In this document: piece by piece, positions 1,853-22,189 of the stretch | Numbering within the stretch: position 1 is the stretch's first letter | Layout of the letters: each line of letters begins with the position of its first letter | IMG/VR virus record: IMGVR_UViG_3300044648_000615 | Span: 1-23,551 of that record | DNA length: 23,551 bases | Direction: 5' to 3' (one strand) | From: a virus | Position numbers and translations under genes: made by a program | The notes under the pieces: generated by a model | Seen by the model: only the letters and a program-made list of their open reading frames with translations | Database searches by the model: none | What the model was told of the DNA's origin: nothing

Positions 1853-2459
1853 TTTCAATCTCCAATATTTTGGTCAATCCATTTTCTACGTGCCTGTAGC
1901 CGAGCAATCGGAAAAATCGTGCGGCCTTACTAACTGTCTTTACGGTAATGTTGATTTCCCGAACGCCAAGCAATTTCATGGCATTCTCGACATACCTTAC
2001 AAAACGCTTGGCAATAGTGCCGCGTCGTGCCTCGGGCAAAAGATACAGCGTGTCTTCCGTGGCAATAAGTGTTTGCGTGTGGGCGCTCTTGTCCAGATAC
2101 ATGGCGCAATTGCCCAGTAACTTCCCTTCGCTCCTTACAGTAAAAAGAAGGTAGCGGCCCGCCTGCTCATACCGGATAAAAGTCTCGTAATCCGGCTGAA
2201 GCGGTAGCCGGTGTCCGTGTCCCTCGGTTTCATTCCAATGGGCGCGATGCAAATGCTTTATTTCTTCTGTAATGTTCTCAATACGCTCTACAGCGAATAC
2301 TATGCGACCGTTATATCGGGGCTTGATCTGTGCAATATCTCTCGGTTGCGCAAGCGTCTCCATGCGGCTGGCGGCAACGCAGATATCAGCGGCCAGATCA
2401 GATGTCAAGGCCAAGCCCATATTTGCCTTGAGCAGCGAAATCAGTTCAATATTCATCAT
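1845..2459 (-). CDS. GNAT-family N-acetyltransferase
   Basis: A protein of about 204 residues with the GNAT pattern: a central beta-strand ending in LYLLPEARRG, followed by the acyl-CoA pyrophosphate-binding turn (RRGTIAKR, the R/QxxGxG/A-type motif A) and a helix. Then come the strand INITV and a C-terminal RFFRLLGYRHVE, typical of motif B (the residue-side 'FxxxLGF/Y' element). The start at 2459 forms an ATGA overlap with the stop of the upstream LamG gene. The longer reading frame from 2531 would run 76 bp into that gene and is less likely. GNATs transfer an acetyl group from acetyl-CoA to an amine; the target here is unknown. Its place among virion genes suggests it modifies a virion or host protein late in infection. 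Confidence 0.78.
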   Translation of the reverse strand: MMNIELISLLKANMGLALTSDLAADICVAASRMETLAQPRDIAQIKPRYNGRIVFAVERIENITEEIKHLHRAHWNETEGHGHRLPLQPDYETFIRYEQAGRYLLFTVRSEGKLLGNCAMYLDKSAHTQTLIATEDTLYLLPEARRGTIAKRFVRYVENAMKLLGVREINITVKTVSKAARFFRLLGYRHVENGLTKILEIENV

Positions 2460-3967
2460 CCATCCATACGTGAAATAAGCTGTTCGAGAGAATCGCGAAC
2501 AGAATTTATGTACGCATACAACGCCTCGCATTCAGCTTGAGTAGGGGGAGCAGAGAATGTAAGTGCGCGAAAGGCGGGAAGCGCTATTCGGTTTCCGCGT
2601 CGTCCGGTCAGTGTCTCAAGCATGGTTTTCAGCCAGGGAGGTGTTCCAACCGGAATGCCAGGCTTCTTGATATAAGTCGCTTCAGCAGGTTTGCTGAAAA
2701 GCGCGGATTCAATCACAACCCCGTCACTTATCGCTTTGGAGCTTGCTTTATTGATTTGGATGCAGAAAGTGGCGACAAGAATGTGTATCTGGGTAATTAC
2801 GCCCGTTCCGCCAGCATTGGCTTGCATGGAGGGCGTCCCGACAAGCGTGCCACTGCCGATGGATATAGGGAGGGCGTCACCTGCATTAAACTGCGCCAGG
2901 TCGGCTTCAATCAGGGTATGAGTTTGCGTGATTGCTCCGCCTGGCAATATCTTCCCTTGGGTCAATGCGCCCATCCTGAGCATGTGCGCCTGACTTACTT
3001 TCCCTGTGTCCCAGGTTCTGGCTGGTGCAATTACAGCACTCGCCAGGGCAATACCTCTGGTAATGCCGACAGTGCTACCCAGGTTGGATTGAACGAGGGC
3101 AGTCGTCGCAAGAATTTGATTCTGCTCGATCTTGCCCGTATTGGCGCCACCCGCCTGTGTTAATCCCGCAACAGCAAGCGCGCGATGTTGAGCAATTTCT
3201 CCGGCGCTGCCGCTATTTGCCTGTATTGCAGCTACACCATTTAATGCAAGCCTTGTATCACCGGGCCACAGTTTTCTTGCAGGAGCCTTGAATAGCTGCC
3301 ATGGGTTTTGGTGCAGCGAGAATACTTCGGCGGGAGCAAAAGCCCGGTCAAAAATTCCGACCGTATCGATGTCGCCATTGAAAACATATGATGAGGTGCC
3401 AGCAAGACCATACGCTCCTACGTATACCGTTCGCGCTGCGGACGGCGCAGTAGCTGAGCTAATGGCGACCTGGATACCATTTACATACAGGATACGGTTC
3501 GAGCCATCGAAAACGCCACAAACAAAATCTCTTTGAGATACTGCTGGTTGCCCTCCAATGCAACCTTCAACGGCGGCATTGTTGACGATCCAGCAGTATT
3601 TTCCAGAGGTATTCAGCCCAAGGAAAAACCCGCTGGCAAAGTCTGTCTCGACGATACGCGCATAAGAACTCAGAGAAGCCGGCCTGCACCATGCGAATAC
3701 CGTAAAAGTCGCTCCGGGAGTTACCGGCCTCGCACTTTGGAGCCTTGTTGTCGATCCATCAAAATATAGAGTCCTGCCTTGATTCCTTATAGCAAGGGCA
3801 GGAGCGGCCGCCGCGCCAGATGAAAAATTATTGCGGGTGGCAATATCTCGGGCGAACTGTTCGGTCAAAGGCGCGACAATGACCGCACCTCGTTTCCAAT
3901 AAGGGGCAAGCTCAACCGAGACTTGCGGCCGTGCATTAAACCTGCCAGACAGGATTATTTCAGCCAC
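2456..3967 (-). CDS. LamG/concanavalin-like domain structural protein with 22-residue repeats
   Basis: A 503-residue protein starting at GTG 3967, immediately after the TAA of the preceding gene; no internal ATG offers a better start. Residues about 60-220 look like a LamG/concanavalin A-type jelly roll: LYFDGSTTRLQ, then TFTVFAWCRP, RILYVNGIQVA and FNGDIDTVGIFDRAFAPAEV. After the family-typical NPWQLF linker, residues 243-419 are eight tandem repeats of 22 residues (one has 23), consensus xxAxLxQxNxGxTGxIxQxHxL. The last ~78 residues form a separate domain ending in a predicted helix. This is probably a virion decoration or fibre-like protein that binds carbohydrate or forms an extended beta-structure. 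Its position between the small structural genes and the GNAT gene supports a virion role; the ligand is unknown. Confidence 0.72.
   Translation of the reverse strand: MAEIILSGRFNARPQVSVELAPYWKRGAVIVAPLTEQFARDIATRNNFSSGAAAAPALAIRNQGRTLYFDGSTTRLQSARPVTPGATFTVFAWCRPASLSSYARIVETDFASGFFLGLNTSGKYCWIVNNAAVEGCIGGQPAVSQRDFVCGVFDGSNRILYVNGIQVAISSATAPSAARTVYVGAYGLAGTSSYVFNGDIDTVGIFDRAFAPAEVFSLHQNPWQLFKAPARKLWPGDTRLALNGVAAIQANSGSAGEIAQHRALAVAGLTQAGGANTGKIEQNQILATTALVQSNLGSTVGITRGIALASAVIAPARTWDTGKVSQAHMLRMGALTQGKILPGGAITQTHTLIEADLAQFNAGDALPISIGSGTLVGTPSMQANAGGTGVITQIHILVATFCIQINKASSKAISDGVVIESALFSKPAEATYIKKPGIPVGTPPWLKTMLETLTGRRGNRIALPAFRALTFSAPPTQAECEALYAYINSVRDSLEQLISRMDG
2711..3241 (-). repeat. Eight tandem 66-bp units encoding 22-residue repeats
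   Basis: Within the LamG-domain protein, residues 243-419 divide into eight consecutive units of 22, 22, 22, 22, 22, 23, 22 and 22 residues. Conserved positions are a hydrophobic residue before Gln (xLxQ), then Asn/Gly, Gly-x-Ile, Gln-x-His and Leu. The DNA has diverged between units, so the array is conserved at protein level only. The period and the alternating hydrophobic/polar pattern fit an extended beta-structure. Confidence 0.8.
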
Positions 3968-12221: not shown

Positions 12222-13493
12222 TTAAAGTGGTACAGCCGAGTCAACCGCAATCACGCCAAAGTCGGTGGGTACCTTGAAACCTGTTCCATCGTCGATAGAG
12301 AAACGGGTTTTCGCTTTGCCGCAAACCTTCTCGCCCATCACTTCCAGGTTACTTTCAAAGTTATACCAATGCTCCTTCCATCCGAACTGCATTCCACTGA
12401 CCCTGGTTTTGCCATAAGCGACACCCAGTGCTTGTGCGCCTAATAATAATCCGCGCTCGATCGCGTACCCGGCAGTCAATGCTCCATTGACAGCCTGATC
12501 GGTTTCTGTTGCAGTTGCCGCGTTTGCTGCGGTGACTATCTTCGTGCTTTCGCCAGGCATGAAGCGGATCGCGCGCTCATTCTTGATCACCAGAATGCCA
12601 TTCCACATTCCAACCTCACCGGCAAACAGCGGATGGCGCTCGTCAAAATATGACGCCCGATTGATGGCGTTCTGCTGGAATGCACGCAACGAACCTTCGG
12701 TCAAAAGGAGCGAGTACTGATTGGGTGTGGCGAGAAATACCCACATCCTGGAAGTCTGCGCGGCTCGATCCCCTGCCAGTTTGACGGATTGCAATGGCTG
12801 ATCCATGTCGTCAAGCCTCTTCCGCAGCTGATCCAGATGCGACAAGCGCAGGGCGTCCGTTGAAACGATGGTTCCCAACTGCTGTCCCCCTGAAGTCAAA
12901 TTGGCGCCGTTCACTACAAAATGACGATTATAGGTAGGTGCCTTCACGGGATTCACCATTATGGAACTGAAGTTCGGTGCGCTTTGAAGCGGTACTGTCC
13001 AGTCCGAACCGGTTTGCGAACCACGTGCTCCTGCAAGATGCACCAGTGTTTCCTGAGCGTCGAGACGGGGGAAATAACCTGACAATTGCGCCAGGGCAAT
13101 TTCACGCAACTGATGCTTGGTGCGTTGCTGCGACATGCTGCCACCGGCATCGATGACTTTACTGGATAGATCGATCTTGATCTCCATTGAGGAAAACGAA
13201 AGTGCACTGCCCCGTCCTTCACGATTGACATCGCCCATCAACGGCTCACCGCCCACCGTATCGACCAGATCGAGCGATACGACATCACCAGCACTTTTCA
13301 TTAAATTATCGATACGCACAACAGGCATGCCCGGATTTGTTTGACCGGCAATTTTCTGCATTGCTACTGAAGGCTCGACCGGGCCGACAAGGCTGTCAAT
13401 CGCTGTGGATCCTTTGAGTGTGTTGGCGAAGAGCGCCGCGCTATAATGTTTGACTGCCAGTGAACTTCCGCTTGCTACGTTTGTTTCAGCCAT
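12222..13493 (-). CDS. Major capsid protein (DUF4043-like, HK97-type fold expected)
   Basis: A 423-residue protein from ATG 13493, 14 bp after the scaffold stop. The segments VVSLDLVDTVGGEPLMGDVN, GSALSFSSMEIKIDLSSKVI and AGGSMSQQRTKHQLREIAL follow the pattern of DUF4043 / N4-gp56-type capsid proteins: a 'G..v...l...L.G.p..Gd...eG.e..l.f' region, then 'm..qr...dlr..a...L..y'. Later parts include NQYSLLLTEGSLRAFQQNAI, WNGILVIKNERAIRFMPG and the C-terminal domain with FGWKEHWYNFESNLEV. It assembles the icosahedral head together with the portal, scaffold and cement protein. Length and context fit well. Confidence 0.9.
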   Translation of the reverse strand: MAETNVASGSSLAVKHYSAALFANTLKGSTAIDSLVGPVEPSVAMQKIAGQTNPGMPVVRIDNLMKSAGDVVSLDLVDTVGGEPLMGDVNREGRGSALSFSSMEIKIDLSSKVIDAGGSMSQQRTKHQLREIALAQLSGYFPRLDAQETLVHLAGARGSQTGSDWTVPLQSAPNFSSIMVNPVKAPTYNRHFVVNGANLTSGGQQLGTIVSTDALRLSHLDQLRKRLDDMDQPLQSVKLAGDRAAQTSRMWVFLATPNQYSLLLTEGSLRAFQQNAINRASYFDERHPLFAGEVGMWNGILVIKNERAIRFMPGESTKIVTAANAATATETDQAVNGALTAGYAIERGLLLGAQALGVAYGKTRVSGMQFGWKEHWYNFESNLEVMGEKVCGKAKTRFSIDDGTGFKVPTDFGVIAVDSAVPL

Positions 13494-13507: not shown

Positions 13508-14470
13508 TTAATCAAGTTCGGCTCTCAAGGCTGCCGCCTGATGCGTGGGCATCTTCATCAGCTTCTGAGCAAGTTCAAATGGGCTCAGACTCTCAAGCTG
13601 CTCACGTTCAGAGGCTGGATTTGCTCCACCCTGAATGTCCGATAGAGTTACAGGCTTCCTCACCGGGGCTGCCTCAAGCTTGGCTTGCACATTGGCTTTC
13701 ATCATTCCCGGATCGGATTTCTTTTTTAGAGTGGAGGCTTCCGGCATGATTGCCCTGACACGCCGGACAACCTCCTGGAACCGTTCCGCATAAGGCTTTC
13801 CTACCCACTTTGTATTGGTTCTCAGAATTTCGTCCTGCTTCAGTGCTTCTTCCCACGCGTCGGCGTCATTACTTTCCCAATGCACGAGATCAGGATTATT
13901 GTCTTTTGCCTCAGCGACTTGCTCTGCAGTACTCAATTGGTTTATGCGCTCGGATTCCTCTTTTTCGCGCTCCAGTTCCCGCAGTGTTTGCTCCAGCTTT
14001 TCGCCTTGCTTCCGACTTCCCTCAAGCAGCGTGCTGAGTACCTGATGAAGTTGAGGCATTTCTTCTTTCAGAGCCTCCAGGTGCGTCTTGAGTTTTTCAT
14101 CCAGCGCAACGGTCTCTACTTCCTTTGCTTCCTCTTTCCGCATCAGGAATTCATCGAGTTTGCCTTGCGCGGATTTTAGCTGCTCACGCAGCGCCGAGTT
14201 CTCTACCCGCAATTCCTTGTGCTTCTGGTAGGGAATGGTCCCCTTGCCGCTCTTGTTCAGAACGACAGGCTCATCTTCACTTTCATCGTCGCTCGCCTTG
14301 CCGGGCATGTCGTCCTTCACACCGGAGCTGGATTTCTCCGTTTCCTCTTCCTCAGATGCTTCCTGCCTGTCTAGAATTTCTGCAAGCTTGTTCGGGTCGC
14401 TTTCCAATATTTCAATTTGTTCCGGCGTTAGATTTGCGATTTGCTCATCCGTAAGCTGATCCACTTCCAT
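13508..14470 (-). CDS. Capsid scaffold protein
   Basis: A 320-residue, extremely charged, Glu/Lys/Gln-rich protein predicted to be mostly coiled coil. It starts at ATG 14470 with a consensus GGAGG six bases upstream. Residues 1-30 include TDEQIANLTPEQIEILES, a helical motif frequent at phage scaffold N-termini. A Ser/Asp-rich linker (about 38-75) and long heptad-like helices (about 85-190) follow, with a helical C-terminus (SPFELAQKLMKMPTHQAAAL) that probably binds the coat. It directs capsid assembly and is then released. It sits right before the capsid gene, as usual. The first ~90 codons and the upstream leader are duplicated, in broken form, 2.1 kb upstream. Confidence 0.88.
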   Translation of the reverse strand: MEVDQLTDEQIANLTPEQIEILESDPNKLAEILDRQEASEEEETEKSSSGVKDDMPGKASDDESEDEPVVLNKSGKGTIPYQKHKELRVENSALREQLKSAQGKLDEFLMRKEEAKEVETVALDEKLKTHLEALKEEMPQLHQVLSTLLEGSRKQGEKLEQTLRELEREKEESERINQLSTAEQVAEAKDNNPDLVHWESNDADAWEEALKQDEILRTNTKWVGKPYAERFQEVVRRVRAIMPEASTLKKKSDPGMMKANVQAKLEAAPVRKPVTLSDIQGGANPASEREQLESLSPFELAQKLMKMPTHQAAALRAELD

Positions 14471-14502
14471 CTTTCCTCCAACTACTTAACCCAGTGAGCG
14501 GG

Positions 14503-14517
14503 CCTGCCTTGAGCAGG
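14503..14517 (-). promoter_or_regulatory. Leader hairpin upstream of the scaffold start
   Basis: CCTGC-TCAAG-GCAGG forms a 5-bp hairpin 33 bases before the scaffold ATG. It is flanked by AACCC and GGGTT, which could pair as an alternative, larger structure. It is preserved in the duplicate copy (16606-16620), which argues that the leader structure matters, perhaps for translation of the scaffold. Confidence 0.45.
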
Positions 14518-14617
14518 GTTCAAAAAAATCCCCGAGCAACACAAGAAGTACATTGATCAGAGGTTTCCAGGACTACTACTGCAATATTGTCGCTAGCCTA
14601 TTCACATGAAAGCCAGT

Positions 14618-14648
14618 AAAAAAGCCGCCACTGTTTCCAGAGGCGGCT
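14618..14648 (-). terminator. Intrinsic terminator after the second tailspike cassette
   Basis: On the minus strand AGCCGCC (14648-14642) pairs with GGCGGCT (14629-14623) around a 12-nt loop, followed by six Ts (14623-14618). It lies 21 bp past the stop of the lyase-like gene. The same element recurs after the first cassette, at 16728-16757. Confidence 0.88.
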
Positions 14649-14669
14649 CGATAGAGTCTGATTAAAACG

Positions 14670-15407
14670 TTATTGCCGCAGCATTCTTAAGGGCGACACT
14701 GGCACTTCCCCCATAACTGCCGGAAAACTTTCGTTGCCAGTCCATTGCTTGACGTTCCGTACCCACATTCTCACCATGTCATAGTCCTGAGAAAGGGTTC
14801 TTGGTCCGACCTTGAAATAGGGACCATTTGCGTCCTCATAAGCCGTGGGCACGTTGTATTCCCCGAAAATCTTCATGCGGTCCAGATAAACCTCGCGCCA
14901 GCCGGTAGCATTTGTTTGCAGATTTGCGCGAATCGTGACGTTATACCACTTGCCTTTTTCCACCTTCCTTGCTGCTACAATCCTTCCGATTGAAGTGACT
15001 GCCGGAAGCGTAGTCGCGGGAACGGCCACAAAAAGCGTTTCCTGATCGACAATGCGCAGACCGATGTTAACGTGCTTAACAAGCAACTGTTCCCCGGCAT
15101 CCGGTGTCGGATACCAGGAACCCAGGCCAGAAACCCCGTTAGTTGTCCACAAGGGATCAATCATGAAATCCAATGAGGACCAGCATTCGCCGGAATTAGG
15201 AAATGCAGGAAAACTGACTTCGGTTCTATAACCGAAATTTGTTTCTGCGTCTGTGCCGTACAGAGTCAGTCGTGCCGCTCCATCCACAATCTCGATACGA
15301 TCGCTCATCCCGGTCAGCATGGTATTTCCAGGCCCCTCCATGCCATTTGCCTGTAAATACGTACCGGCGAAATCGACGTCAAGAGGAAAATTGAATAACT
15401 GAGTCAT
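14670..15407 (-). CDS. Polysaccharide lyase-like tailspike/depolymerase
   Basis: A 245-residue beta-rich protein from ATG 15407, in a TGATG junction with the adaptor-bearing partner upstream. The order of motifs fits the heparin lyase I / PF14099-type jelly roll: TNFGYRTEVSFPAFPNSGECW (the R-x-E strand), LDFMIDPLW, a central strand LLVKHVNIGLRIV, then VEKGKWYNVTIRANLQTNAT and GWREVYLDRMKIF. The region PYFKVGPRTLSQDYDMVRMW closes the sandwich. Lyases of this fold cut acidic polysaccharides, so it may degrade a host capsule or exopolysaccharide. Substrate and activity are inferred. It could instead be a lectin-like binding protein with the same fold. A strong terminator follows. Confidence 0.68.
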   Translation of the reverse strand: MTQLFNFPLDVDFAGTYLQANGMEGPGNTMLTGMSDRIEIVDGAARLTLYGTDAETNFGYRTEVSFPAFPNSGECWSSLDFMIDPLWTTNGVSGLGSWYPTPDAGEQLLVKHVNIGLRIVDQETLFVAVPATTLPAVTSIGRIVAARKVEKGKWYNVTIRANLQTNATGWREVYLDRMKIFGEYNVPTAYEDANGPYFKVGPRTLSQDYDMVRMWVRNVKQWTGNESFPAVMGEVPVSPLRMLRQ

Positions 15408-16285
15408 CAGAACGCGCTCCTCAAAATGGGATTGCCCGGATTCGAGCGAAGCTGCTGGAAAATACTTGTCAGAGCTTTCACGGAGGGCATGGGATAGTTG
15501 GCAGGCAGCCTGAGTATTACCAAAGCCCTCGTAGCCGTTGCGATACCCGCAGTGGATTTGGCAGACGCAGGGTAGGATGTGCCGATGTTGAACGTGTTGG
15601 AATTGCGTGTATCTATCCCGCCGGCTAGCGAAGTATATGAGCCTTCAGAAAGTGAATATTCCTCGTCCACCCATATGCCGTGCTGCCCCCCCTGCGCACC
15701 ACCGCTTACGGCTATGGCAAAACTGTGCAAGCCGCCGGAAATGCTCTTGTGCCCGTTTGAAGAGTAAACTTCGGTAGCACCCGACAGTACGAAACCGACA
15801 CGTCCGGTTGTGTATAATGCGATACGAATGCCTCCCTGTCCCGGGGACGTACCATAACCATCGCCCATCATCCGGGCAGGTGATGTTTCTGCCGTAACCT
15901 TGCCAAGCCACCAGATAATCAGCTTCTCGCCACCCGCATAGTTATAGTTCAGATTGGGAATGCGCAATACGGAATCGGTTGCGCCGCTTGCCGGATCAAT
16001 CGTGGACGCATAGCCGGAATTCGGCGTCCAGAGTTGCGAGACCGACAGGTTTACGCCGCGCGCGGCATGGTTTATTCCTGTCAGATCGTAAAATTTATCG
16101 TCGTCTGCAACCTGGTTTCCCGTGAAGCCGTGAAAGTGGTAATAAGGATGGAATCCGTCAGGATCGTACGCTTCAGCACTCTTCAGTGTTATCAGACTGT
16201 CCTCAATACTTTTATCGAAGGAGACAGCAGTTCCTTTCCCGTAAAGATATCCTGATAAAGTTGTGTCGCTCAGAAATCGAATCAT
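15407..16285 (-). CDS. Receptor-binding protein with N-terminal adaptor and lectin-like domain (second cassette)
   Basis: A 292-residue protein from ATG 16285. Residues 1-43 (MIRFLSDTTLSGYLYGKG, then FDKSIEDSLITLKSAEAY) match residues 1-42 of the first-cassette protein and resemble a small domain seen at the start of many phage fibre-type proteins (GYxxG, then a helix with E-x-x-L-I). The rest looks like a LamG/concanavalin A-type jelly roll: LIIWWLGKVTAETSPARMMG, GRVGFVLSGATEVYS, HSFAIAVSGG and GIWVDEEYSL, ending in ATRALVILRLPANYP. It is co-translated with the lyase-like protein. I infer that it anchors the cassette to the virion and binds sugar. Confidence 0.7.
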   Translation of the reverse strand: MIRFLSDTTLSGYLYGKGTAVSFDKSIEDSLITLKSAEAYDPDGFHPYYHFHGFTGNQVADDDKFYDLTGINHAARGVNLSVSQLWTPNSGYASTIDPASGATDSVLRIPNLNYNYAGGEKLIIWWLGKVTAETSPARMMGDGYGTSPGQGGIRIALYTTGRVGFVLSGATEVYSSNGHKSISGGLHSFAIAVSGGAQGGQHGIWVDEEYSLSEGSYTSLAGGIDTRNSNTFNIGTSYPASAKSTAGIATATRALVILRLPANYPMPSVKALTSIFQQLRSNPGNPILRSAF

Positions 16286-16318
16286 ATTTGCCCTTTCCGT
16301 TTATCCAAATATTAAATG

Positions 16319-16572
16319 GTTCTCTACCCGCAACTCCTTGTGCTTCTGTAGGGAATAGCCCTTGCCGCTCTTGTTCAGAATGACAGACTCATCTTCATCG
16401 CCGCTCTCTTTGCTGAGCATGGCATCCTTCACATCAGGGCCGGATTTCTCCTTTCCCTCTTCCTCCGGTGCTTCCTGCCTGCCTAGAACCTCCGCAAGCT
16501 TGCCCGGGTCGCTTTCCAATATCTTGATTTGTTCCGGGGTAAGATTTGCGAATTAAGCTGATCCACTTCCAT
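16319..16572 (-). pseudogene. Broken duplicate of the scaffold gene 5' end
   Basis: The ATG at 16572 and its GGAGG site match those of the real scaffold gene, and the DNA follows scaffold codons 1 to ~91. A net 10-nt deletion around codons 6-11 shifts the frame, leaving a 29-codon reading frame that ends at TAG 16485-16483. Further small deletions follow. The original scaffold frame can still be read from about 16519 downward (SDPGKLAEVLGRQEAPEEEG, KSGKG, QKHKELRVEN) until homology ends at 16319 and a stop follows at 16301. It cannot make scaffold protein. It is the truncated arm of the direct repeat that flanks the second receptor-binding cassette. Confidence 0.88.
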
Positions 16573-16624
16573 CTTTCCTCCAAACTACTTAACCCAGTGA
16601 GCGGACCTGCCTTGAGCAGGGTTC

Positions 16625-16670
16625 AAAAAAGAAACCCCTGAGCAAGCACAAGAAGCGCATTGATCAGGGG
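16625..16670 (-). terminator. Second intrinsic terminator in copy B
   Basis: On the minus strand CCCCTGA (16670-16664) pairs perfectly with TCAGGGG (16641-16635) around a 22-nt loop, followed by TTTCTTTTTT. The equivalent place in copy A has mismatches, so the stem is intact only here. Confidence 0.7.
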
Positions 16671-16727
16671 CTTCAACACTACGACTGCATAATCGCCGCT
16701 AGCGCGTTCGCATAAGCGAAAGCCAAT

Positions 16728-16757
16728 AAAAAGCCGCCAATGTTTCCAGAGGCGGCT
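16728..16757 (-). terminator. Intrinsic terminator after the first tailspike cassette
   Basis: AGCCGCC (16757-16751) pairs with GGCGGCT (16738-16732) around a 12-nt loop with a TTTTT tract (16732-16728). It lies 20 bp past the beta-helix gene stop and is the counterpart of the terminator at 14618-14648. Confidence 0.88.
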
Positions 16758-16777
16758 CCTGATTGATCTGTTTGGTT

Positions 16778-18358
16778 CTATCTATATCTCAACGTATAAC
16801 GCGGGGTGTTCGTTACGTCTTCCACTGCCCCAATATTGGGAGTGTTATAAAACTGTTTTCCGTAGAAGTCCTTGCCCCCCAGGTAAACGCCCTTGCGCTT
16901 TATCGCATCTGCCAGAGGGCGATAGGAATTATTCAGTTGTGGATCGGCTGTAATTGTCGATGCTGCCAGAGTATGTTTGGATGGTGCGCCAAATCCATAA
17001 AAGCAGTTATTAGATTCGCCGGTCCACGAAGCCGAATCTACCTTCACTGCCGGAAGAATCTTGTTGCTTGTGGTGAATATGTTATTGCGCACAATATTTG
17101 TCGTATTGTTAGCCCCACCGACGAGATACACGCCACTTTGGAAACAATTAACAAAAGTGTTGTTGTGAATATTAGATGATTGCCCCGGACCCTTGTTTCC
17201 GAATGCAACACCAGTCACGCAATTTACGATCAAGTTTCCGTAGGCGGTTACATTCGTCGCGTCAAGAACGAGTATGCCGAACCCGCTTCTGTAGTTGCCG
17301 GTCGAACTGTCGCCGGTAATGTTTCTGAATTCGTTGGAGAAAGCCACCGAGTCCTTGCATTGATGATCGAACAACACACCACAACCATCTATGTCAGTAC
17401 TGGTGATGTTCTCCGCGTAATTATTGAAAATGCGGTATGTCCCATACATCGGGTTGCAGAAGCCAGTTAATCCAGCCAATCCATAGCACTTATTGTTGTA
17501 AATATCGTTTGTTCCAAACCCTGGCGTTGTAGATTTCTCGAAACCTCCAAGGGCAAATCCTCCGCCCAAAATCCCGACTTGAGACTGGTTCGTTATAGTA
17601 TTGTTGTAGATACGTATTCCGGTATGCACTCCGTATGTTTCCGGCCCATACGCCTCCACCGCTACCGCAGAGCAATTGGTAAAGGTATTGTCCCGGATCA
17701 CAATGTCCGACAGCTTGGTCCCGACGGCTACGGTATTCAGCGCCCTGAGCAGGATCACGGCTCGTTGCGATGAGCAGTTGGTAAAAGTGTTGCCGTAAAT
17801 CTGAAGGTTGCTTACCGTGCTCACCACGGCTGCCGTGTTATACCACTGGATTGCAGAGCCACCAGTCGAGCCTGCGCCTCCGTTGAAAGAGTTCCCGCTG
17901 ATGATGCAATCCTCATAGGCCCAGGTATTGAATGTCCTAAATCTGATTGCAGCTTCGGCGCCGCACGAAAATGTGCAGTTTGTGACCCAAAGGGCTTTTA
18001 GTGGTGTGCCCCCTGGGGAGATGCAAGCGTTATTCCCCGCGTTGATTGTCAGCGCAGTTATAGTCGTATAATTTCTGTTGGCATCAATGTAGTAAGTCCC
18101 GGAAGAAAACGTGATTACGCCCGGATGCCCCGTATAATCCCCCCGAATGGTCACGCGGCTGCCTGACGTTGCGCCGTGCGCGCCTATGGTAAGGATTGCG
18201 GCATATGAATGTGAGTCGCACACGTAGAGAGTATCACCGCCAACCACTCCCGCACCGCCCCAAACAATCTCAGACCAGCCTCCCCAGGCAGAAGTGTAGG
18301 ATTGTCCGTTGCGCATTCCGTTGTGGGTTGTATCGGGACGAACATACCAGCCTGCCAT
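16778..18358 (-). CDS. Right-handed parallel beta-helix tailspike, probable depolymerase
   Basis: A 526-residue protein from ATG 18358, directly abutting the stop of the adaptor gene (TAAATG), with GGGGGA before it. From about residue 60 to 440 it shows repeated short strands with Asn/Thr/Val ladders: YTTITALTINAGNN, NLQIYGNTFTNCS, DIVIRDNTFTNCS, GIRIYNNTITNQS and SNIHNNTFVNC. These are PbH1-type coils of a pectate-lyase-like beta-helix. The N-terminal MAGWYVRPDTTHNGMRNGQS with GGAGVVGGDTLYVC is the usual lead-in of such proteins. Phage tailspikes of this fold bind and often cleave capsule or O-antigen polysaccharide. Whether this one is catalytic cannot be told from sequence. Confidence 0.82.
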   Translation of the reverse strand: MAGWYVRPDTTHNGMRNGQSYTSAWGGWSEIVWGGAGVVGGDTLYVCDSHSYAAILTIGAHGATSGSRVTIRGDYTGHPGVITFSSGTYYIDANRNYTTITALTINAGNNACISPGGTPLKALWVTNCTFSCGAEAAIRFRTFNTWAYEDCIISGNSFNGGAGSTGGSAIQWYNTAAVVSTVSNLQIYGNTFTNCSSQRAVILLRALNTVAVGTKLSDIVIRDNTFTNCSAVAVEAYGPETYGVHTGIRIYNNTITNQSQVGILGGGFALGGFEKSTTPGFGTNDIYNNKCYGLAGLTGFCNPMYGTYRIFNNYAENITSTDIDGCGVLFDHQCKDSVAFSNEFRNITGDSSTGNYRSGFGILVLDATNVTAYGNLIVNCVTGVAFGNKGPGQSSNIHNNTFVNCFQSGVYLVGGANNTTNIVRNNIFTTSNKILPAVKVDSASWTGESNNCFYGFGAPSKHTLAASTITADPQLNNSYRPLADAIKRKGVYLGGKDFYGKQFYNTPNIGAVEDVTNTPRYTLRYR

Positions 18359-18934
18359 TTAGTCCCCCACGAAATGCAGCACTCGATAGTATTCGAGTTT
18401 AAGCGCATCGCCATTGTTTGCTCTCTGTCCGATGATATCGACCGTGACATTCGTTGCAAAATCGATAGTGTAAGTTGCAGGCGAGCCCGTTCCTGCCGTT
18501 ACGTACGCATTGTCGTAAGGTTGTATCTGCGATGCCAGGGAATTACGGTTTGCCAGAACGATCAGGGGCGCTTCTTTGACAGACGTAGTGCGCGTGGCAC
18601 TGTAAACCGTCACACCGCCAACCTTGACTTTCAGAATCTTGTTGTTCGCGCTACTGCTGAATGTCCACAACGGCTCGATCTGGAGGATGCTATTGACGCC
18701 GATGATTCCCGCATGAACGGTAAACGATCCCAAAACCTCATCCGTCGCCGTCGAGGCGCATGAGGCAGTCACAGCCGAACTCGACAGTACCTCTACCGGC
18801 TTAGTAACTGCCGGATAATCTTCAGCATCACCTTGAGCAATCAAAATCGCCTCAGTCACATCATCAAACCTGGAAATTGCGCCCTTACCGTATCTGTACC
18901 CCGCCACAGTTTCATCATTCAGAAACCGAATCAT
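18359..18934 (-). CDS. Adaptor-bearing tail protein of the first receptor-binding cassette
   Basis: A 191-residue protein from ATG 18934, with AAGGAG seven bases upstream and 13 bp after the portal stop. Residues 1-42 (MIRFLNDETVAGYRYGKG, then FDDVTEAILIAQGDAEDY) are the same adaptor as in the second cassette. The remaining ~140 residues form a beta-sandwich common in phage tail proteins: ILQIEPLWTFSSSANNKILK, VKVGGVTVYSATRT, LIVLANRNSLASQIQ and VTVDIIGQRANNGDALKLEY. It is directly coupled to the beta-helix tailspike. I infer that it links the spike to the virion or acts with it in receptor binding. Confidence 0.7.
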   Translation of the reverse strand: MIRFLNDETVAGYRYGKGAISRFDDVTEAILIAQGDAEDYPAVTKPVEVLSSSAVTASCASTATDEVLGSFTVHAGIIGVNSILQIEPLWTFSSSANNKILKVKVGGVTVYSATRTTSVKEAPLIVLANRNSLASQIQPYDNAYVTAGTGSPATYTIDFATNVTVDIIGQRANNGDALKLEYYRVLHFVGD

Positions 18935-18947
18935 CTTGTTACTCCTT

Positions 18948-20939
18948 TTATGCGGATAATGCGTTACCTATATGACAATCAGCTATCTTCTCCGCCTCCA
19001 GACGGAGTTTCGCATCATCCATATCCTCTTTGTGCGCCTGCGCACGCGCTTTTAAGTGAAGGTCGCATGCCTTGTCCTTAAGCTGCTGCTCAGCCTCTCC
19101 CAATCTCTGCTGCAACTCACCAATCTGCCCTTGCGCCTCCTGTATCATCTGCTGCACTTGCTGCTGCAAAGCCTGAAATTGGGGATTATCGTCGCTACCG
19201 GCCGCTTGCCTTAACTGATGGGCCAACTCATGCCGGTTCGGGACATTGGACAGCTCGAGCATTACCGGATAAAGTACAGCCTGGAACCGAGGGGGCGCGG
19301 CTTGTACGATTTGCGACATAGCTTGCAACTGCTGCGCCCGAAATGTCGGAGTAGCAGGAATATCCTCAAGCACAACTTTGACCGTTGCAGAAGCAATGTC
19401 GTTGTGTACCAACCCGTCATCCAACTGGCGATTGAAATAAACCACCTTTGGTTTATTACCTTGCTGGACTGTAATTTGCGCGGGTCTTCCAATCAGGTCC
19501 TCCTTGATCAGTGCAAGAAGTTGCTGGCCAACAAGTCGGCGAGCATGGCGAAAATTATCATTGGGCTCCCCCAACACGGTCGACCCCTGTTCCACCAGAC
19601 TGTTGATCGCCACACCGCTGCTTGCTGAGGTATGCGCTCCCAGCATAGTGCGGTAGATTCCGCCCACTTCCTCGATCTTGCGCTTGCGTTCCTGCACGAG
19701 CTGAAACACTTGGGCGGCAAGCTGATGCTCGCGTATTACCCTGAAGCCACTGGTATTCCTTCGCTGAGAGTTGAGGATGGTCATCGAGCGCAGACTGCTT
19801 ATATTATTCGCAACCTCCTGATAAGAATTCTGGCTGAGATCGAGCGCATCATTGTCCACTTCGACTTTTACCGAATTGAGGACTTCGTAGAGAAGAATAT
19901 CCAGATCGATAATCTGATCCTGTGGTCCCCGCATGTCACGAATCAGCCCGTAGGGAGCTCGGCTCCTATCCTTGCGAAAGCACCAGAACGGAACATATGG
20001 AAAATCTGAATGAGGTAATGGACTCCGAACATCCATGAGTTTATGCGGCCCCAACCAGATCGAGACCCGCATCCTGGTGAGAACCGACTTCTGGACCTGC
20101 ACGAGACCTTGGGCAACCGCTGCCTGATGATATGGGTTATCCTCGCGATATTCGATTACCTTTCCATCAGGCAATCCCAGAACGTATGCATCCTCGAAAT
20201 GCCGATACCATAATTCGGAGAGCCTGACCATACCTGAGTTCCGGTTCAGGTAATCTTCCTGGTTGCGATTCCATGCCTGCTCGATTTCATACGCTCTCGC
20301 CAGGCCTCTGTCATAACCTTCATATACGTCCGTCCCGTTCCACCCCTTCCAGCTATTTGCAATGATTTCCGCCCGGTCAGGGAACATAAGTGTAGCCTGA
20401 AGCCGGTCTATCCACTTGTCGCGTCGCAGATATCGCGCATCGGACAAATCCGGCTCCCTTGAACTCCAGTCCCAATAAATTTCGTTACGGTGCACCTCGC
20501 GGACGCGATATGGATATTTGAGCGCATCAAATTCCCGGGATATTTCTACCCACCCAATGCCCGCCCGAATCATGCTGGAATATGCGTCTGACATGGTCCG
20601 GTCAGCGCGTGACTCGGTCTCGGCCTCTTTGATTTTTGCGGAAAGACCTTCCGCAATCTCTGTCTGACTCTCATCATCCGCCGTCACCCTGTAATCCGTT
20701 CGGCTACGCGCTTCCAACCCCAATACTGCGTTAATCGTCGGTTTGATCAGATTGGAATCCTGAGGCGGGATACCGGCCATCTTCAGTCGTCCGATCACCT
20801 CCGAACTGGTCTGCGCTCCGTCGTAATAATCACAGTCCGTGTCCGAGTCCGACCGCCACTTCGGTTGATCCCGAATATCGCGGCATATTTTGTCGTAAGC
20901 CTCAATCGAAATATCTGCCGTAACACCTGCCTCAGTCAT
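18948..20939 (-). CDS. Portal protein, P22-like
   Basis: A 663-residue protein. The ATG at 20939 makes an ATGA overlap with the large terminase stop; an in-frame TTG at 20948 is less likely. The start (QPKWRSDSDTDCDYYDG), NLIKPTINAVLGLEARSRTD and the following VREVHRNEIYWDWSSREPDL with ARYLRRDKWIDR are typical of P22-type portals. The central wing/crown part contains FWCFRKDRSRAPYGLIRDMRG and PQDQIIDLDILLYEVLNSVK. The last ~120 residues are Gln-rich helices forming a coiled-coil or barrel. Twelve copies would form the ring at the capsid vertex through which the terminase loads DNA and to which the tail connector attaches. Confidence 0.92.
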   Translation of the reverse strand: MTEAGVTADISIEAYDKICRDIRDQPKWRSDSDTDCDYYDGAQTSSEVIGRLKMAGIPPQDSNLIKPTINAVLGLEARSRTDYRVTADDESQTEIAEGLSAKIKEAETESRADRTMSDAYSSMIRAGIGWVEISREFDALKYPYRVREVHRNEIYWDWSSREPDLSDARYLRRDKWIDRLQATLMFPDRAEIIANSWKGWNGTDVYEGYDRGLARAYEIEQAWNRNQEDYLNRNSGMVRLSELWYRHFEDAYVLGLPDGKVIEYREDNPYHQAAVAQGLVQVQKSVLTRMRVSIWLGPHKLMDVRSPLPHSDFPYVPFWCFRKDRSRAPYGLIRDMRGPQDQIIDLDILLYEVLNSVKVEVDNDALDLSQNSYQEVANNISSLRSMTILNSQRRNTSGFRVIREHQLAAQVFQLVQERKRKIEEVGGIYRTMLGAHTSASSGVAINSLVEQGSTVLGEPNDNFRHARRLVGQQLLALIKEDLIGRPAQITVQQGNKPKVVYFNRQLDDGLVHNDIASATVKVVLEDIPATPTFRAQQLQAMSQIVQAAPPRFQAVLYPVMLELSNVPNRHELAHQLRQAAGSDDNPQFQALQQQVQQMIQEAQGQIGELQQRLGEAEQQLKDKACDLHLKARAQAHKEDMDDAKLRLEAEKIADCHIGNALSA

Positions 20940-22189
20940 GCCCGCCAACCTTTCATATTAATACCTCGTGCACTCACAGCCGGTTTATCCTCCTCGATTG
21001 CCACGGCAAAATAGCGAAAGGCATCGGCTGCATGGCTGTGATAATCATGTAGGGGCCTTGCGCTGAATTGACCGGAATCAGGATCGACATCAAATCGATA
21101 ATGCCTCAGGCTCTGCAGGCCTTCTGCGCAATTCAGCTCATCAAAATAGCAACGTGGAAAGATGGTTCTCGCCGCGTTGATACCATCATGAATGGAGAGA
21201 CTTGGCACGATTCTTACTTTTCGCCCCGCCGCAAGCATAATTTCCTCCACGCTGCGCCCGGTTGTCAGTGTCCGGGCTTTGGCATCGTGCGGTAACCAGT
21301 CTGTACCATACATATACCCTTTGTTTTGCAGCACTCCGATATAATGCTGAATTGGCATCTGGCTATTACTGTAGTAATCGATCAATCTGAGTTCGTTGCC
21401 AACGGTCTGCGCAAACCAGATGCTGGTGTTGTCGGCCCAACCGAGATCAAAGAAGGTATGTACCGGCTTTGCCTCATCATATGGCACGCCTCGTATCCTT
21501 CCTTCTTCCTGTGTCAATCGAAGCTCCTTCGCATAAACCGCTCCCTCCAGCGTTACCCTGCAATTCCCTTCCCATACGTTCTGGTAAGCATCCGGATCAC
21601 GCGCTTTCAGTTCATCCTTTTCCCGTCGCAAGGTCTCCGGAAACCATGGGTTGTCATTCCAATTGATTTTTACTACGACAGCGCCAACAGGGGGATTGAC
21701 TACAAACCGCTGATGAGTCTCATCGGTATTGAGCTCAGGGTTGTAAGTCACCCAGATTTCCGACCCCTCTTTACGAATAGTCGGAATAAGTGTATTCCAA
21801 CTTGTTTTGCTCACTGTCTGTGCTTCTTCCACCCAGACCCTGTCCACACCCTCGAACGATTTGATTCTGGTTACGTTGCTATGCAGACCGGCAAAGATGA
21901 ACTCGGAACCGTTTGTTCCACGTATAACGCTGTTTTGCACCTCGTAAAATGAGCTTAAACCAATGGCCTCTATCTGAGCTTTCAATAAATGATGCACGGA
22001 TTCGACGATAGAATTCTGAAATTCTCTCGCACACAAGATGCGCAATGGGGTTGCAGCCGCCTGAATCAATAATGCCCTGGCAACCCCCCAGCTTTTTGCA
22101 CCCCCTCTTCCCCCGTATAAGATCTTGTAGCGTGCTGGTTCAAACAGACACCTGAGTTTTATCGGAAATTCAGCTCTATGGGGAGTCAT
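20936..22189 (-). CDS. Terminase large subunit (PBSX/T4-type, Terminase_3)
   Basis: A 417-residue packaging motor from ATG 22189, 17 bp after the small subunit. The ATPase domain has Walker A at residues 26-33 (GGRGGAKS), Walker B at 118-123 (VWVEEA, with the catalytic Glu at 121/122) and the coupling motif TYNP at 148-151. The nuclease domain begins with FFDLGWADN (D248 as the first metal-binding Asp), followed by PHDAK and HSHAADAFRY near the C-terminus. The length is normal for the family. It pumps DNA into the head and cuts it, probably by a headful mechanism given the Sf6-like small subunit. The stop codon overlaps the portal start. Confidence 0.95.
   Translation of the reverse strand: MTPHRAEFPIKLRCLFEPARYKILYGGRGGAKSWGVARALLIQAAATPLRILCAREFQNSIVESVHHLLKAQIEAIGLSSFYEVQNSVIRGTNGSEFIFAGLHSNVTRIKSFEGVDRVWVEEAQTVSKTSWNTLIPTIRKEGSEIWVTYNPELNTDETHQRFVVNPPVGAVVVKINWNDNPWFPETLRREKDELKARDPDAYQNVWEGNCRVTLEGAVYAKELRLTQEEGRIRGVPYDEAKPVHTFFDLGWADNTSIWFAQTVGNELRLIDYYSNSQMPIQHYIGVLQNKGYMYGTDWLPHDAKARTLTTGRSVEEIMLAAGRKVRIVPSLSIHDGINAARTIFPRCYFDELNCAEGLQSLRHYRFDVDPDSGQFSARPLHDYHSHAADAFRYFAVAIEEDKPAVSARGINMKGWRA

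Follow-up and report, generated by a model that had tools for sequence, protein, structure and literature searches.

A decaying scaffold-gene relic records the stacking of a second tailspike gene pair in a phage-derived block of Nitrosospira

The window analysed here, a stretch of 23,551 nucleotides listed in IMG/VR as a virus record, contains a diverged direct repeat, a decaying scar left when a second pair of genes for a sugar-cutting tailspike was stacked behind an earlier pair. We favour, with reasonable confidence, the view that this tailspike array lies in a phage-derived, GTA-like structural block fixed in the chromosome of Nitrosospira, a soil ammonia oxidiser, and was built by stacking, addition and contraction of gene cassettes. 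It is unlikely that the window represents an ordinary phage, and the block may be a domesticated gene-transfer-like particle with a growing and shrinking tailspike set.

The block codes for spanins, terS, terL, the portal, the tailspike array, the scaffold, the major capsid protein, an SU10-type adaptor, a tail fibre, a lysozyme and internal virion proteins. Genes for an integrase, a repressor or replication were not found in 1–23551. The features relevant to the array are as follows.

1–23551, minus strand: phage-derived structural and lysis block, spanning the whole window
18948–20948, minus strand: P22-like portal, bordering the cassette array
18359–18934, minus strand: cassette 1 adaptor, with a 40-aa anchor-like N-terminus (β-hairpin and helix) and a β-sandwich domain (AlphaFold pLDDT 85, Foldseek)
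16778–18358, minus strand: cassette 1 enzyme, right-handed β-helix, PF13229
16877–18196, minus strand: exchanged core of the cassette 1 enzyme, from a DNA identity comparison with four close relatives
16728–16758, minus strand: terminator of cassette 1 (copy B), hairpin of -17.9 kcal/mol plus T-tract
16319–16727, minus strand: copy B, decaying relic of the leader and 5' scaffold, with the edge of similarity at 16319
16286–16318, minus strand: stacking junction, where the scaffold relic is joined to the short adaptor 2 leader with its RBS
15407–16285, minus strand: cassette 2 adaptor, with an anchor-like N-terminus as in cassette 1
15709–15716, no strand: best-fit crossover in adaptor 2; upstream as in tandem copy 2a, downstream as in copy 2b, of locus L004
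14670–15407, minus strand: cassette 2 enzyme, a polysaccharide lyase (PF14099) that weakly matches the glucuronan lyase 2zzj
14619–14649, minus strand: terminator of cassette 2 (copy A), -20.5 kcal/mol
14471–14618, minus strand: scaffold leader, copy A
13508–14470, minus strand: scaffold-position gene, phrog_479 without function annotation; its first ~90 codons complete copy A, which reaches to 14198
12222–13493, minus strand: major capsid protein, PF13252, our marker for genus-wide presence and tree tests

A promoter scan of the window returned nothing that stood out, with fewer promoter-like sites than in shuffles; the promoter/terminator scan missed the terminators of interest, which were folded separately.

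The repeat and the scaffold relic

Copy A (14198–14649) and copy B (16319–16758) are direct repeats with 82.4% identity over 461 gapped columns (E 2e-127) and 83–100% identity within ungapped blocks, and their bounds are exactly those reported in a first-pass annotation of this DNA. The similarity spans the terminator, a leader of about 150 nt, the RBS, the start codon and about 80–90 scaffold codons, and is not limited to terminators and RBSs, the outcome that the annotation had named as contrary to its reading. Copy A supplies the scaffold gene with its working terminator, leader and 5' end; an Rfam search of the leader gave no match. Copy B is a pseudogene: its old start codon lies at 16570–16572, and a 10-bp deletion after codon 6 causes a frameshift with a stop at codon 30. 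This pseudogene state is absent from the first-pass annotation.

The relic is present in all six compared loci that stack this lyase cassette and in one complete genome (G010, the seventh relic). In the six loci aligned it stops at one common position of the scaffold gene, and the 10-bp deletion is common to four of the six aligned relics. Copy-B relics form their own group in a tree (support 76; modest support of 43–80 within the group). The deletions that have worn down copy B differ from relative to relative, and next to nothing of it is left in L006 and L008; the terminator hairpin, kept in every copy-B relic folded, is the sole part intact everywhere. The common relic and its shared end point make it probable that the lyase cassette was stacked once in this clade. 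No relic was found in the other two-cassette loci searched (L011, L022, L115 and L012), suggesting that stacking there was probably independent. The event would have taken place in an ancestor of the N. multiformis group, by illegitimate joining of one copy, at scaffold codon ~90, to the short leader that precedes a lyase cassette in a related copy; this would have placed cassette 2 behind cassette 1 and left copy B as a dead scaffold fragment.

Cassette content, number and recombination

Two complete ORFs lie between the repeat copies (15407–16285 and 14670–15407) and two upstream of copy B (18359–18934 and 16778–18358). Each cassette pairs an adaptor gene bearing the 40-aa anchor-like N-terminus with a gene for a predicted polysaccharide-active enzyme, and closes with a terminator. 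Between adaptors 1 and 2, similarity is confined to residues 1–40, which are 52% identical; the enzymes differ (PF13229 β-helix versus PF14099 polysaccharide lyase). The first-pass picture of a complete two-gene cassette between the copies, and of an upstream cassette with the same N-terminal adaptor and another enzyme fold, is borne out. In homologues, the shared N-terminus is also fused directly to β-helix and S74-chaperone tailspikes. By N-terminal profile matches and enzyme families, the locus holds at least two units with a common N-terminal anchor and different enzymes, as in stacked modular tailspike/RBP loci. The C-terminal domain of adaptor 2 is probably lectin/LamG-like, in a low-confidence model (mean pLDDT 56) taken as a hint only; a PDB sequence search with adaptor 1 gave nothing significant. 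We infer that the cassette products attach to the virion and act enzymatically on polysaccharide. Among the 50,697 phage records of INPHARED, there was no protein match to either adaptor or enzyme of the window, no close DNA match to the window, and only matches below 60% to the portal.

Between portal and scaffold, 38 of 57 non-identical loci have one cassette, nine have two, one has three and nine have none, and the fixed two-cassette layout that would have spoken against the first-pass reading is not what relatives show. The third cassette occurs in two genomes (L004 and G010), with the same junction at the terminator T-tract. Compared with tandem copies 2a and 2b of L004, the second cassette of the window reads as a 5'/3' hybrid: of 225 informative sites, those to the left of the crossover favour 2a over 2b by 56 to 4 and those to the right favour 2b over 2a by 149 to 16 (maximum χ2 141, versus 20 in 2000 shuffles). 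Repeating the test with G010 gave a χ2 of 57 versus 18. In G010 itself, 2a and 2b reach 98–100% identity in three of the first four blocks of 200 columns, a pattern suggestive of conversion between the tandem copies. The cassette 1 enzyme also shows exchange, its core having about 41–64% DNA identity to four close relatives, versus 73–98% upstream and 84–95% downstream. The visible recombination sites are homology inside adaptor 2, the terminator T-tract and the flanks of the cassette 1 enzyme.

Such a hybrid second cassette is what a reduction from three cassettes to two would leave behind, had the recombination taken place within the adaptor gene. Following the stacking event, a third cassette (2b) would have been joined behind 2a at the terminator T-tract, and the window lineage would then most likely have lost one cassette through recombination between its two adaptor 2 genes; we infer this order of stacking, addition and contraction from sequence comparisons. 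The site pattern fits a single crossover whatever its origin, and so could also reflect a crossover between a 2a-type and a 2b-type genome, without a three-cassette ancestor of the window. We regard that as possible but rather unlikely, since 2a and 2b stand in tandem in two close genomes and no lone 2b cassette was seen among the genomes compared. Far less probable is the proposal that the A/B repeats are maintained as arms through which cassettes are deleted or exchanged by recombination. Two direct copies of ~450 bp at ~82% identity, one on either side of a cassette, would suit such a role, but the predicted product, cassette 1 joined to leader A, occurs in no member of this clade, the observed recombination lies elsewhere, and we rejected the proposal because copy B decays independently in each lineage. 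Of the first-pass interpretation, then, the stacking of two receptor-binding-type cassettes by recombination and the variation in cassette number stand, and a role of the repeats as recombination arms is not supported.

The block across Nitrosospira

The block, ~23 kb in genome G001, was found with an intact capsid gene in 22 of 23 Nitrosospira genomes, versus one of 102 others in the family. In about 18 of the 22, host genes are shared on both sides, placing the block at one syntenic chromosomal position; in the others the comparison is restricted by contig ends, by flanks outside the sequence retrieved or by weak matches. The window, a record without host flanks, probably comes from this position too. 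The flanks consist of host genes and IS transposases, and no phage integration or replication/early genes were detected in the block or syntenic flanks except rve-type (IS) transposases (best 25 of 39 families). Block genes are under purifying selection (dN/dS 0.05–0.30; terL ~0.1). Strain Nl18 has two ORFs in place of one for the 678-aa virion protein, together with a frameshift in the C-terminus of the portal, so that decay seems likely in this strain.

Of 19 bipartitions, 10 are common to the capsid and rpoB trees, and none of 5000 label shuffles gave more than 4 (Mantel p 0.0002); the trees disagree at some well-supported deep nodes, a pattern of mostly vertical inheritance with some deep conflicts left. 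Most genomes carry the block once. Two genomes have second copies, which are surrounded by phage early genes and are likely full prophages; they branch inside block diversity, indicating that exchange with phages occurs.

The IMG/VR listing, the uniformly phage-like structural genes and the likely full prophages with early genes in the same genus would fit an ordinary temperate podovirus in which a stacked tailspike pair widens host range. We consider this improbable, given the one chromosomal place genus-wide, the lack of integrase and early genes, the mostly single copy and the co-divergence with rpoB; a structural block without linked integration and replication/early genes does not resemble an autonomous temperate phage. 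A role in phage host range, as in the first-pass annotation, is conjectural, and the element has the look of a chromosomal block passed on vertically, not of a mobile phage. A somewhat stronger candidate, though still doubtful, is a fixed defective prophage kept as a killer particle or for lysis-based polysaccharide release, with the array setting the particle's target cells. Its genomic evidence is identical to that for the GTA-like reading, and lysozyme and spanin genes are present, but both terminase subunits and the portal are kept and terL has a dN/dS of ~0.1, suggesting that DNA packaging is still selected. On the GTA-like reading that we prefer, the block most likely makes GTA-like or other non-replicating particles, whose putative spikes would open the extracellular polysaccharide of kin cells. 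More tentatively, and with the odds somewhat against it, the genus could carry a working podovirus-type GTA whose targeting spikes change by adding, fusing, swapping and deleting cassettes at a fixed locus adjoining exopolysaccharide-type genes.

Should the block indeed make GTA-like particles, they would give a major group of soil ammonia oxidisers its own dedicated route of gene exchange, in a lineage not among the GTAs reviewed in PMC9662315. The array is also a natural record of tailspike set expansion and contraction: a single orthologous locus preserves a scar, a third cassette and a contraction hybrid, and the strains are open to culture and testing.

Comparison with known systems

GTAs have tailed-phage-derived particle proteins, are fully endogenised in the host and are inherited mostly vertically with host co-diversification; they also package mostly random host DNA in a head too small for their whole own genome and deliver it to other cells (PMC9662315). 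The block has tailed-phage-derived proteins (terminase, P22-like portal, capsid, SU10 adaptor, fibre and lysozyme), shared host flanks with no integrase inside, and mostly vertical descent. It thereby resembles RcGTA, BaGTA and BhGTA (viriforms) in its structural genes, conserved chromosomal place, predominant host co-divergence and purifying selection (PMC9662315). It differs in having podovirus-type proteins, in an ammonia-oxidising betaproteobacterium; the established GTAs in PMC9662315 belong to lineages other than Nitrosospira. The RcGTA tailspike TspA (PMC13420450, preprint), likened here by description, is also a polysaccharide-active spike accompanying a GTA, whereas the Nitrosospira spike genes form part of the structural block itself, in one to three exchangeable adaptor and enzyme pairs.

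Among phages, the Klebsiella KP34-type systems share separate anchor and depolymerase proteins and modular horizontal exchange (PMC8262889); the adaptors and enzymes of the window, however, have no sequence match in the 50,697 phage records. The branched tailspike clusters of Ackermannviridae likewise comprise several tailspike genes with conserved N-termini. Their spikes branch on each other via XD/TD domains, unlike those of the window, and the passages of PMC11414711 considered here describe neither a two-gene adaptor/enzyme unit nor a scaffold relic. When a tailspike gene was added to such a cluster experimentally, neighbouring genes recombined or a deletion arose (PMC11414711), an outcome much like the contraction from three cassettes to two that we propose for the window.

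A diverged repeat within a two-cassette array

The first-pass annotation had proposed a long direct repeat around a two-gene receptor-binding cassette, and alignment bore this out: copies A and B are 82.4% identical over 461 columns (blastn). The similarity goes beyond the terminator and ribosome-binding site, as it also takes in the leader and about 90 codons of the gene at the scaffold position. Copy A is intact. In copy B, 10 bp are missing after codon 6, and a stop follows at codon 30. On the minus strand the order is terS, terL, portal, adaptor 1, beta-helix enzyme, copy B, adaptor 2, PF14099 lyase, copy A with the scaffold gene, and capsid:

18948-20948 (-), portal gene
18359-18934 (-), adaptor 1
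16778-18358 (-), beta-helix enzyme (PF13229), cassette 1
16319-16758 (-), copy B, a scaffold-gene relic
15407-16285 (-), adaptor 2
14670-15407 (-), PF14099 lyase, cassette 2
14198-14649 (-), copy A

In a model of good confidence, adaptor 1 opens with a hairpin and helix at its N-terminus and continues as a beta-sandwich; its fold matched fibre and spike proteins of phages, as well as TNF-like lectins, with modest TM-scores. The low-confidence model of adaptor 2 has a core like carbohydrate-binding lectin folds, and the lyase weakly matched glucuronan lyase.

Searches with capsid and scaffold collected about 100 viral and 29 genome loci; 20 of the latter are close (83-98% capsid identity) and come from Nitrosospira or Nitrosovibrio. 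Adaptors between portal and scaffold were counted with a profile of the 40-residue N-terminus. Cassette number varies from 0 to 3 among 57 non-identical loci (none in 9, one in 38, two in 9, three in 1); two loci with long intervals, L020 and L064, may contain a second unit that lacks a recognised adaptor. The enzymes are of beta-helix, PF14099 lyase, GH5-like and GH42-like groups. An anchor role for the 40-residue N-terminus is supported by its fusion to complete tailspike-like proteins, single genes downstream of the capsid gene that also encode a beta-helix or S74-chaperone protein:

L045, 13166-14764
L056, 13254-14918
L032, 5535-7220

The portal-scaffold interval lacks a cassette in L036, L040, L048, L050, L080, G009 and G011; in the last five of these, segments of adaptor-1-like and beta-helix type are instead found downstream of capsid.

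Probable stacking, contraction and exchange of cassettes

The copy-B relics of the window and of five relatives (L003, L004, L006, L008 and L070) form one group, separate from the copy-A leaders, and all six break off at one common point of the scaffold gene; a further relic is present in the complete genome G010. A 10-bp deletion is common to four relics, that of L070 lacks a start codon, and those of L006 and L008 are reduced to pieces. The relics are best read as the product of a single stacking with later decay. In every relic folded, the hairpin of the terminator is preserved (-17 to -18 kcal/mol). No scaffold relic was found at two-cassette loci elsewhere in the genus, which probably arose separately; in L064 only a short leader/terminator piece is left. 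The leaders of three single-cassette loci (L005, L007, L103) fall within the copy-A group, so that replacement of the array with retention of the leader is likely.

A third cassette is present in L004, in L101 (the GTDB locus of G002, with the same array as L004) and in G010, a separate complete genome. At the joint of the tandem cassettes 2a and 2b, the terminator T-tract leads directly into the adaptor-2 leader. Towards its 5' end, cassette 2 of the window resembles 2a, and towards its 3' end 2b: informative sites divide 56:4 (2a:2b) on the left and 16:149 on the right, with a breakpoint near 15709-15716 (maximum chi2 141, against 20 in 2000 shuffles; 57 against 18 with G010). L070, L003, L006 and L008 gave no such signal or a weak one only. 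A crossover between two genomes could also yield a hybrid cassette; the simplest reading, however, is that contraction from three cassettes to two within one lineage made cassette 2 of the window.

Exchange of cassette 1 took a different form. Its enzyme core is only about 41-64% identical to four relatives, whereas portal, adaptor 1 and the enzyme start are 73-98% identical to the same relatives and the enzyme 3' end 84-95%. For the C-terminal ~80 residues of the portal (gene at 18948-20948), relatives with other cassette types often align only to residue ~584-597, and cassette exchange thus seems to have one edge within the portal gene.

A structural block in Nitrosospira chromosomes

In N. 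multiformis strains Nl18, Nl7 and Nl12, the ~23-kb set of structural and lysis genes matching the window is found at a single syntenic position. An intact capsid gene was found in 22 of 23 Nitrosospira genomes, in single copy in 19; the remaining genome, G018, is a fragmentary assembly of 2.5 Mb in which rpoB is split. Of 102 genomes elsewhere in the family, only one had the gene, at 42% identity. Reference flank genes matched on both sides in 18 of the 22 (including the three reference genomes), and in the other four, contig ends, weak matches or unfetched flanks set the limit. The flanks carry genes for host metabolism, O-antigen ligase and glycosyltransferases along with IS transposases, and no phage early genes among the families listed (25 of 39).

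Most block genes are common to the genus, with dN/dS of 0.05-0.30 in the N. multiformis clade and a genus-wide dS near 2. Of 19 bipartitions, 10 are common to the capsid and rpoB trees, where 5000 label shuffles gave no more than 4; the distances of the two genes correlate (Mantel p 0.0002), with a few supported deep conflicts. In GC content the block and its flanks differ by no more than 2 points. The window record includes no host sequence on either side, and we infer its chromosomal place from G002 and G010, to which it is closely related.

Second capsid copies occur in three genomes (G005:C2:1075312, G006:C24:370263 and G013:C38:8789), and the reference flank genes are missing around them wherever flanks were fetched. 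Around the copies of G005 and G006 are phage early genes, including NinB, RusA and methylases, and both are likely full prophages. All three copies fall within the diversity of the block, which points to exchange of the fixed block with phages.

In many Nitrosospira genomes the block, which encodes predicted polysaccharide-active spikes, is bordered by glycosyltransferase and O-antigen ligase-like genes (g1 41276-43717, L167). A LamG-domain protein gene (2456-3967 of the window; 31-62% identity over long matches) is far more variable across the genus than most neighbours; it is a second hypervariable gene and possibly receptor-binding.

Comparison with gene transfer agents

Taken as a whole, from 1 to 23551, the window matches a structural block of G001:C12, G002:C15, G003:C20 and other Nitrosospira genomes that keeps a constant chromosomal position and has neither integrase nor early genes, a candidate gene transfer agent (GTA). 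The published GTA criteria comprise features accessible to sequence, which the block shows, and functional ones, namely packaging of random DNA, a head-size limit and delivery (PMC9662315). On genomic evidence, it may work like a GTA or another domesticated particle. In Nl18 (L100/L166), a 678-residue virion protein is split into ORFs of 237 and 431 residues and the portal C-terminus is frameshifted; the split speaks against function in that strain, and the two changes together are a sign of decay. No report of a GTA in Nitrosospira was among the matches listed in the literature searched, which covered few subscription papers. In function, the closest parallel to the array is the spike of RcGTA, TspA (PMC13420450); in behaviour, it is the contraction that followed addition of a tailspike to an Ackermannviridae phage (PMC11414711).
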